Shown here: piece by piece, positions 9,364 through 15,926 of the stretch | Layout of the letters: each line of letters begins with the position of its first letter | How positions within the stretch are numbered: the first letter of the stretch is position 1 | NCBI GenBank assembly: GCA_001603035.1 | Contig: LVAS01000059.1 | Location: forward strand, 124,001 to 188,000 | DNA length: 64,000 nucleotides | Reading direction: 5' to 3' | Origin: Clostridiales bacterium Firm_13 | Lineage (GTDB): Bacteria; Bacillota; Clostridia; Saccharofermentanales; Saccharofermentanaceae | The notes under the pieces: generated by a model | What the model was told of the DNA's origin: nothing | Database searches by the model: none | What the model saw: the letters and a program-made list of their open reading frames with translations, nothing else | Translations under genes and position numbers: made by a program

Positions 9364-9431
9364 CTTTTCTTTACTTTTTCACATATTCATAGCGGATTAG
9401 AATCGGGCATAAAGGCGTGGGGAGAATTGGC

Positions 9432-10760
9432 GACGCGTGAGTGTGTCGATCGCGATTGGATTACCACACTGATCGACGAAAGGTGCATTCTGTGTGGTAA
9501 TCGGCACGGCATAGGCGGCAATCGGAGACGCGTGAGTGCGTCGATCTGGATAAAATTACCACACAGGCCGACGGGAAGTGCATTCTGTGTGGTAATCGGC
9601 ACGGCATAGGCGGCAATCGGAGACGCGTCGGCGTGTCGATCGCGATTGTATTACCACACAGACCGACGAAAGGTGCATTCTGTGTGGTAATCGGCACGGC
9701 ATAGGCGGCAATCGGAGACACGCGAACGCGTCGATCTGGATTAAATTACCACACAGGCCGACGGGAAGTGCATTCTGTGTGGTAATCGGCACAGCATAGG
9801 CGGCAATCGGAGACGCGTGAACGCGTCGATCTGGATAAAATTACCACACAGATTGTTGGAAAGTATGTTCTGTGTGGTAATGGACAGGTGTGGGACGTCA
9901 TCGGAGACGCGTAAGTGCGTCGATCAAGCTTGGATTACCACACAAATCGACGAAAAGCTCATTCTGTGTGGTAATCGGCACGGCATAGGCGGCAATCGGA
10001 GACGCGTGAACTCGTCGATCTGGATAAAATACCACACAGATTGCTGGAAAGTATGTTCTGTGTGGTAATGGACAGGCGTGGATCGTCATCGGAGACGCGT
10101 GAGTGCGACTATCAAGCTTGGATTACCACACAGATCGACGAAAAGCGCATTCTGTGTGGTAATCGGCACGGCATAGGCGGCAATCGGAGACGCGTCGGCG
10201 TGTCGATCGCGATTGGATTACCACACTGATCGACGAAAGGTGCATTCTGTGTGGTAATCGGCACGGCATATGCGGCAATCGGAGACGTGTCGGCGTGTCG
10301 ATCGCGATTGGATTACCACACAGATCGACGAAAGGTGCATTCTGTGTGGTAATTGACAGGCGTGGATCGTCATCGGAGACGCGTAAACGCGTCGATCAAG
10401 CTCAGATTACCACACAGGCCGACGGGAAGTGCATTCTGTGTGGTAATCGGCTTGGCAAATGCTCCATTGGAGACGCGCGAACGCGTCGATCAAGCTCGGA
10501 TTACCTCCAAGATTGGTAGAAGGTGTGATTTTGGAGGTAATCGGCTTGGCTAAGGCTCCATCGGATGCGCGCGAACGCGTCGATCAAGCTCGGATTACCT
10601 CCATGATTGGCAGGAGGTGTGATTTTGGAGGCAAGCGGCTTGGCTATGGCTCCGTCGGAGTCGCATGAACGCGTCGATCAAGCTTGGATTACCTCCAAGA
10701 TTGGCAGAAAGTGTGGTTTTGGAGGTAATCGTCAGCCAAGACCCCTCTTCGGAGACGCGT
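9432..10760. repeat. Tandem array of 14 units of ~95 bp, each with two hairpins; function unknown
   Basis: The whole gap between two minus-strand genes is filled by units starting at 9432, 9527, 9622, 9717, 9812, 9906, 10001, 10094, 10189, 10284, 10378, 10472, 10564 and 10660, ending with a half unit at 10754. Each unit has hairpin A (GACGCG-TGAA-CGCGTC and variants), then hairpin B with 12-14 bp arms (GATTACCACACAGA / TCTGTGTGGTAATC) around a ~16-nt purine-rich loop containing GAAAGGTG or a relative. The last three units carry different but still complementary arms (ATTACCTCCAA / TTGGAGGTAAT). Unit length 92-95 is mostly not a multiple of three, so no frame runs through: the array is not protein-coding. 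Linkers and loops occur in a few shuffled versions. No known repeat class was recognised. Confidence 0.93.
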
Positions 10761-10881
10761 GACCGCCAGCGGTATCGTCTGGTTCTTCTTTCCCCTACCG
10801 CTCCATTGTATGATCGACGTACATGCCGCTCATATTGGCATTGATTAATATCTTGCATCTGAAATAAGAGACTAAAAATGC

Positions 10882-14164: not shown

Positions 14165-14440
14165 CAAATGCGTTGATCTTTGTTGGATTGCCATATGGAT
14201 CAGCGAAAAGCGCTTTCTGTGTGGTAATCGGTGGTCACGTGGCGGTTATTGTGACGCGTGACCGCGACGATCAAGCTTGGATTACCTCTAAGATTGGCAG
14301 AAGGTGTGATTTTGGAGGTAATCGGCTTGGCTAAGGCTCCATCGGAGACGCGTGAAAGCGTCGAACGCGCCCTGATAACCACGCAGATGGTCTGCATTTT
14401 CTTTCTGTGTGGTAATCGACAGGCGCGCGTTCAATCGCCC
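14165..14440. repeat. Three decayed copies of the two-hairpin repeat family
   Basis: The same unit type as in the 9432-10760 array reappears about 3.4 kb away in the same orientation. The middle copy (~14262-14350), with the arms ATTACCTCTAA / TTGGAGGTAAT and the linker CGGCTTGGCTAAGGCTCCATCGGA, is nearly identical to the unit at ~10495-10570. The flanking two copies have mismatched arms (GATTGCCATATGGA / TCTGTGTGGTAATC; GATAACCACGCAGA / TCTGTGTGGTAATC). Confidence 0.88.
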
Positions 14441-14609: not shown

Positions 14610-15926
14610 TTAGGGCTGCGGCTTCCCACATTCAGAGCAGAATTTGCCGGTATTTCCGGTCGCGCCGCAAGAGCACGTCCACCCTTCCGAAGGCTTCGGC
14701 TTGCCGCACTCGGCACAGAACTTCCCCGTATTGCCGGTCGCTCCGCACGAGCAGGTCCACCCGGCCGAAGGCTTCGGCTTGCCGCATTCGGCGCAGAACT
14801 TACCTGTATTACCGCTATGCCCGCAAGAGCATGTCCATCCGCCCGCGCTTGCCGCGACGGCTGCCGCTCCGGCGGCGACAGGGGCCGCAGAGGCCGCAGC
14901 AGAGTTCATGGGGTTCGGCATCCCGCCGCCCTGTGCCGCCATATTCAGCATTCCGACTCCGGCAAAACCTGTAACCGCGCCGCTCGCATTGGATCCCGCA
15001 TTCTTATATGCATCCGTCATTCCCATTGTGGCATACGTTGATGCGAGGTCGCCGTCTTTATAATTGCGAATTCTGGTAACTTCGTCGATACGTGCCTGCG
15101 ACTTCTCGTCGGGCGAAACGGGATTGATACCGACGGCGATAATCTCGATTCCGCGATTCTGCATCCAGTCTTCATCAAGAACCGTTTCCAGTTCTTTCTT
15201 GATATCCATCTGATAGGTAGGAATCTGCGAGAAAAAGATATTCTTCCCGCCTTCGCCAAAGCGATTAATCGCGGGGGAAAGCGCGGTCAGGAACTCGGTG
15301 CGCAGTTGTGTGTCTGTGAAGGGGTTCCGATTGAATGTGTCACCGACCGTACCGGAAATATTCTCAAAGAATGTAATCGGGTTCTTGATCTTGTAGGTAT
15401 ATGTGCCGTTGACGCGGATGTTGATACTCTTAAACTCCGGGTCGCGGTACGGAATCGGCGTCGGCGTTCCGAAAGTGTTCCCGGTAATTTCGAGAAGGTT
15501 CACAAAATACACTCGCTGTTCGGAGTTAACTACGCCGGCCGTCTTAAAACGGTCGAGAATGAGGCTCATCGACTTCTTGAAGCCTTCTTTAATGCCTTCA
15601 CTGGCAAGCATGGAAGGTGCCGAGGAAGAATCCCAAACGTAGAGGCCGGGTTCTGTCGTAAAGTCCGTTACCTTTCCGTTGTCCACAAGAAGAAGTGCCG
15701 TCCCTGTCGGAACCGCGATTCGGGAGCCGTTCGTTATGACGTCGGAATCGCCCTTATTGCTGCCGTTCTTGACTTTACGGGCACCTCTCTTAACGAGCGT
15801 ATCGCGATCGAGCGCATCTCCCGTAAAGAACTCCTGATACTGATCCTTGAATACGGAAGAAATCGACTCGGCACCGGCCGAGAAAACATTCTGTGTCGCA
15901 CCTGTTATCGCACTGATAAGTCCCAT
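14610..15926 (-). CDS. SPFH-domain protein with three C-terminal zinc ribbons (YdjI-like)
   Basis: 438 residues. The N-terminal ~300 residues form an SPFH/band-7-like domain of the YdjI type (VPTGTALLLVDNGKVTDFTTEPGLYVWD; RVYFVNLLEITGNTFGTPTPIPYRD). An Ala/Gly-rich linker follows (~315-362). Three near-identical 26-residue repeats at ~363-388, 389-414 and 415-438 each read GWTCSCGxxGNTGKFCxECGKP, with four Cys each, so three tandem zinc ribbons; they are also tandem repeats in the DNA. The start follows AGGAGG. In Bacillus the ydjGHI genes pair an SPFH protein with Tim44-like and zinc-ribbon partners, as here. The role is unproven; envelope-stress or membrane-organising functions are suggested for the family. 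Confidence 0.88.
   Translation of the reverse strand: MGLISAITGATQNVFSAGAESISSVFKDQYQEFFTGDALDRDTLVKRGARKVKNGSNKGDSDVITNGSRIAVPTGTALLLVDNGKVTDFTTEPGLYVWDSSSAPSMLASEGIKEGFKKSMSLILDRFKTAGVVNSEQRVYFVNLLEITGNTFGTPTPIPYRDPEFKSINIRVNGTYTYKIKNPITFFENISGTVGDTFNRNPFTDTQLRTEFLTALSPAINRFGEGGKNIFFSQIPTYQMDIKKELETVLDEDWMQNRGIEIIAVGINPVSPDEKSQARIDEVTRIRNYKDGDLASTYATMGMTDAYKNAGSNASGAVTGFAGVGMLNMAAQGGGMPNPMNSAAASAAPVAAGAAAVAASAGGWTCSCGHSGNTGKFCAECGKPKPSAGWTCSCGATGNTGKFCAECGKPKPSEGWTCSCGATGNTGKFCSECGKPQP

Follow-up and report, generated by a model that had tools for sequence, protein, structure and literature searches.

In REPtrons, REP or REPIN palindromes are partnered by a RAYT protein (TnpA-REP) and palindrome and enzyme co-evolve, the REP enzymes being HUH transposases of the Y1 type that act on folded single-stranded DNA with a GTAG or CGTC tag (PMC8266576, PMC3733652). 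The array considered here lies in a 64,000-nucleotide stretch of DNA (the window) from Clostridiales bacterium Firm_13, and the family of arrays to which it belongs shares with REPtrons multicopy short palindromes, single, paired or clustered, that occur both beside the gene for a DNA-processing enzyme and away from it, dispersed in the genome. However, the enzyme here is of the PD-(D/E)XK type, there is no GTAG or CGTC foot (the TACC/GGTA ends are inside the palindrome and the flanks vary) and the spacing follows the turns of duplex DNA. The genome containing the window, G000 (a Saccharofermentans-like MAG of 1.68 Mb in 67 contigs), which is 80.8% complete, has no match to PF01797 (Y1 HUH transposase), for which control genomes are positive.

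In the type III toxin-antitoxin systems ToxIN, CptIN and TenpIN it is as RNA that the repeats function, and the toxin is of the ToxN fold. There as here tandem repeats directly adjoin a nuclease-type gene, but the present arrays are helically phased, are found on either side of the gene and are also dispersed without it. ToxN/AbiQ is not among the listed fold matches of the predicted protein model, PD-(D/E)XK folds being matched instead, though absence from such a list is not proof. Specificity subunits of type I restriction systems vary in their recognition domain with the remainder conserved, and in the present family also the presumed recognition part changes while the rest is conserved; the differences are that no methyltransferase or motor subunit is seen and that the target is a self-encoded array. 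With TnsA of Tn7, which the C-terminal domain matches best in fold (Z 8.4; tied with Bax1), the nuclease fold alone is shared. All 39 of the aligned family members match, in their C-terminal part, the C-terminal nuclease region of the PADLOC candidate defence proteins PDC-S68/S69, but in the PDC-S68 models, which are ~1200 aa long, the nuclease comes last, and a palindrome array is absent from their listed features.

The window array (9430-10770) has 14 tandem units with a spacing of 93-95 bp, each unit of ~95 bp combining a short GACGCG..CGCGTC palindrome with a palindrome of 38 bp, and as a feature without strand it extends from 9432 to 10770. The first of 15 short linker palindromes, likewise without strand, is at 9432..9447, and the distance from their centres is ~41 bp (4 turns) to the large palindrome that follows and ~53 bp (5 turns) to the one that precedes. 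Eleven large palindromes on the forward strand (9462..10445) are A-type, TACCACAC..GTGTGGTA, with starts at 9462, 9557, 9652, 9747, 9842, 9936, 10030, 10124, 10219, 10314 and 10408, and in these units 1-11 the length from TACC to GGTA is a constant 38 bp. The three that follow on the same strand are B-type: TACCTCCAA..TTGGAGGTA at 10502..10539, a decayed TACCTCCAT..TTGGAGGCA at 10596..10633, and TACCTCCAA..TTGGAGGTA again at 10690..10727.

An earlier note on this DNA had proposed a compensatory swap of hairpin arms at this point, and the swap is real: 11 units have TACCACACAG arms and three have TACCTCCAA arms, the middle one of these being decayed. Its observation that the flanking linkers stay of one family across the swap also holds, with the linkers of A and B units being homologous (family D2, 79-82%). 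It was right in its coordinates and general description, but not as to the regularity of the stems, since the full 11-bp stem is present in only ~4 of the 11 A units and the others have 1-3 inner mismatches. The suggestion of a Shine-Dalgarno-like core in the loop has to be abandoned, as the GTG and TTG starts behind the loop motifs open at most 57 codons, and mostly 2-6. Nor is this a CRISPR array, with identical repeats and unique spacers, because the linkers are themselves homologous repeats. The loops and linkers of units 12-14 are closer to those of A units than to those of B units elsewhere in the genome, and so in these units the arms alone were exchanged, with loop and linkers kept A-like.

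A second array, decayed and in the order A/B/A, is 3.5 kb downstream of the main array (14189..14414, forward strand), with palindromes at 14189-14226, 14283-14320 and 14377-14414, a spacing of 94 bp and the same linkers as the main array. The window also has, at 14638-14845, a 78-bp in-frame tandem repeat with zinc-ribbon-like motifs (WTCSCG..GNTGKFCAECG) in an SPFH/Band 7 protein.

The genome as a whole has about 100 such 38-bp palindromes, of three discrete arm types, A, B and C, the third of which, TACCTACTAAA, is common; 116 covariance-model matches are spread over many contigs, a few of them being one palindrome counted on both strands. Units of all three types are 38 bp long (C sometimes 39-40), with identical outer TACC/GGTA and related loops, and stand side by side within single arrays, with hybrid arms in 0 of 87 units. 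A-type arms were found only in G000 among 115 family genomes (none of the 114 others), and none was found in IMG/VR. Many of the arrays are at contig ends (arrays are at or near ends of C41, C66, C17, C16, C11, C3, C12, C60 and C29), and the assembly seems to break at arrays; missing cognate genes may lie in the assembly gaps at these contig ends. A dispersed inverted-repeat block, GGATCCTCGGGAGAAATTT..TTCCGCAGGCGCGAAGCG.., that adjoins arrays in L015, L012, L014, L016 and L019 may be a further repeat family. An Rfam search of the arrays gave no family match, its sole match being to a DUF3800-I RNA (RF02969, 96.5 bits) nearby, at 1531-1638 of L011 on contig C41, ~0.6 kb from an A/C palindrome array.

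What is it that is being conserved? The earlier note took the joint change of the arms as direct evidence for a maintained stem. When representatives of each arm type from several genomes were compared (10 in all, from the TACC superfamily), six pairs were changed on both sides, with all four Watson-Crick pairs at position 5, and the observed covariation was reached by 0 of 500 shuffles. Among 45 units, positions 5-8 are two-sided between types and most inner positions are not. The symmetry of the palindrome arms is under constraint. Within types, all 37 core-arm departures at positions 1-8 are one-sided and none is two-sided, and 15 G.T versus 16 A.C amounts to no wobble bias. Tolerance of G.U on one strand and stepwise compensation are expected of an RNA stem, and as both are absent such a stem is not the best reading; the conserved entity is best read, on present sequence comparisons, as a dyad DNA recognition site existing in discrete versions. 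The stem interpretation is thus partly supported. Arms do switch jointly between types, and symmetry is constrained, but proof of a folded RNA or single-stranded DNA stem this is not, and the independent arm drift that the note itself named as counting against it is what is found within a type, where inner pairs drift separately.

Spacing also bears on this. Centre-to-centre distances are mainly 50-54, 62-64, 72-75, 84-86, 95-96 and 104-107 bp, and the modal spacings of 46 distinct arrays are helically phased (R 0.78 at a period of 10.6 bp, with a 99.9% quantile of 0.52 for a null of jittered values). Expressed in turns, the spacing is nine for the window array and six and eight for other G000 arrays. 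Whole-turn spacing is what proteins binding to a single face of duplex DNA would call for, the phasing implying that it would be double-stranded DNA, bound by protein, that matters here.

In relatives, detection of arrays needed the covariance model, direct DNA search giving none; their arms, in the same palindrome format, are TACC[T/C/G]ACTAAA, TACCGTCCCAA and TACCGGCAAAA. In G002 and G006 palindromes are directly before a gene for a protein of ~270 aa, the two genes being close homologues (56% alike). This gene is multicopy in relatives with arrays flanking it, and for the 54 copies examined an array is often adjacent, with arms differing from gene to gene. By the strict rule of two or more hairpins whose 8-mer arms are identical, which about half of the family loci fail, 65 of 134 gene loci (two sets pooled, a few loci being counted twice) have a same-arm array, every one within 540 bp of the gene. 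The same rule was satisfied by 1 of 20 random stretches, probably mostly coding, and by 0 of 54 dinucleotide shuffles of loci; that all 65 cluster close to the gene is independent of the random control. Fifty-three arrays are upstream of the gene and 12 downstream (43% expected by position), many of the former ending 37-250 bp before it, and arrays at these loci reach 7-15 units. At L165 and L246 like arms flank the family gene on both sides. Solo arrays, away from a family gene, are present in G005, G006 and G009.

A scan of one genome per species turned up matching stretches, at least 588 in number, and the best 80 belong to Lachnospiraceae, Saccharofermentans-like and other Clostridia, Treponema and Fibrobacter. 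Recent transfer of the gene across phyla was considered and is not supported, as the tree groups the phyla. In G000, 80.8% complete as it is, no family protein was found by single-sequence search, by profile or in the loci examined there. A search of plasmids gave only the nuclease domain, inside large ATPases, and one of phages gave a pair of uncultured contigs, of which one covers 77% of the ~270-aa protein. In an empty-site comparison the flanks were without a match in G001.

The ~270-aa protein has no Pfam or NCBIfam family. Four residues, E165, D196, E211 and H212, are invariant in 39 sequences, and the structure prediction (pLDDT 91) shows a PD-(D/E)XK fold at the C-terminus, for which the structure matches, of moderate Z, include TnsA (8.4) and Bax1 (8.3), then VRR_NUC, Hjc and DrdV among others. 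The core fold is that of PD-(D/E)XK enzymes, but with H212-x-G where x-K is usual (E-H-x-G rather than E-x-K). The N-terminal part is predicted (pLDDT 92) as two long helices with a beta-hairpin between them, that is, a coiled coil with a tip, and its structural matches are unspecific coiled coils; an integrase arm-binding domain was entertained for it and rejected, the model being such a coiled coil with a beta-hairpin tip.

At orthologous loci, where several genes occupy one chromosomal place across species with flanks ~70-94% alike, the N-terminal half of the protein changes in step with the arms and the nuclease domain is kept. The ratio of N-terminal to C-terminal identity is 0.82-1.0 when two loci share arms but 0.42-0.89 when their arms differ (p 0.002, each locus contributing one value), same-arm pairs also being closer overall, for which the ratio corrects in part, and arms having been grouped by eye. 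The sharpest dip is in one 20-aa segment by the beta-hairpin tip, where identity is 15-50% in different-arm pairs and 60-95% in same-arm pairs. In Butyrivibrio, L215 and L236, with different arms and flanks 86% alike, have a C-terminal identity of 0.83 and an N-terminal identity of 0.35, the values for L215 and L222, with the same arms, being 0.84 and 0.78; L236 has 35-38% N-terminal identity to L215 and L222 and 83-86% in the nuclease domain, which is thus as close as that of L222. Over 48 loci arm similarity tracks protein identity (Mantel p 0.0005). The C arms of the window's genome, TACCTACTAAA, also stand upstream of the gene in L097/L204, and at that one chromosomal site L203 has TACCGACTAAA and L094 TACCCACTAAA. 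Most likely it is these arms that the neighbouring protein recognises, and swapping them would alter the specificity.

We consider it probable, though well short of certain, that the array is a series of palindromic sites in duplex DNA, lined up along one face of the helix, which the ~270-aa protein family recognises. The N-terminal coiled coil with its beta-hairpin tip would read the DNA, the C-terminal PD-(D/E)XK domain would be the nuclease, and the protein would bind its own array as a dimer on duplex DNA, units 12-14 presumably fitting another cognate protein than units 1-11. From the conserved active site together with the solo arrays we infer an active nuclease whose nicking or cutting of the palindromes would spread the arrays, these growing and moving via break repair and recombination, REPtron-like but with another class of enzyme. 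The solo arrays of G000 would then be non-autonomous copies whose gene was lost or is unassembled. We read this as an enzyme-palindrome pair with switchable specificity, a REPtron-like arrangement as judged from comparative data. The wider proposition, that such self-contained elements are widespread in gut and rumen Bacillota, Treponema and Fibrobacter, with the tip and the arms of the phased array switching together and dozens of matched nuclease-site pairs, is held with less assurance, the balance tilting only slightly towards it.

Would an operator suffice? An active or domesticated PD-(D/E)XK protein could bind the palindromes and control its own gene, with no spreading role, and the upstream position of 53 of 65 arrays, many of which end 37-250 bp ahead of the gene, together with helical phasing suited to cooperative binding, is what this would lead one to see; it is nevertheless unlikely given 12 arrays that are downstream only, arrays as long as 7-15 units, ~100 G000 units without the gene, the solo arrays in three relatives and the invariance of the active-site residues. 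Somewhat more doubtful still is a homing-type selfish nuclease that cuts the arrays of rival cassettes at a shared site, with gene and array being copied in by repair and exchange of specificity driven thereby. Orthologous sites with flanks ~70-90% alike do hold cassettes differing in arms and N-termini, but divergence in place predicts the identical picture, the gene's own array would be a target, and no empty or interrupted target allele was seen. That the units act as RNA or single-stranded DNA hairpins, for instance as a repeat-RNA antitoxin of the neighbouring nuclease in type III fashion, has in its favour the adjoining of tandem repeats and a nuclease-like gene, the strong pairing of the arms and the covariation pointed out in the earlier note; whole-helical-turn spacing, departures within types that neither favour G.U over A.C nor show stepwise compensation, arrays on either side of the gene, no Rfam family match to the array, and a predicted fold that matches PD-(D/E)XK proteins, with ToxN not among the listed matches, make it highly improbable. 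Least credible is tandem-repeat drift, in which unequal crossing over would have multiplied a chance arm variant that has no partner, for while recombination homogenises tandem arrays and the variant is common to the last three units, three discrete arm types recur on many contigs, hybrid arms are absent from all 87 units and other genera have the same format with cognate genes.

If the reading as an enzyme-palindrome pair is correct, what is new is the PD-(D/E)XK gene plus phased palindrome array as a system, the general idea of enzyme-palindrome pairing being already known; no prior description of such a gene with such arrays was found in the open-access literature, which is weak evidence. 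It would be a second, unrelated solution to the role filled by REPtrons, with a small enzyme and its own dispersed palindromes, and one in which a PD-(D/E)XK protein appears to read duplex DNA. The dozens of natural reader-site pairs, some co-located in sister species, would allow a recognition code of the tip to be sought by comparison. Array repeats may account for breaks in genome assemblies such as that of G000. And the compensatory arm swap in the window would have a direct cause, the arms following the specificity of the protein.
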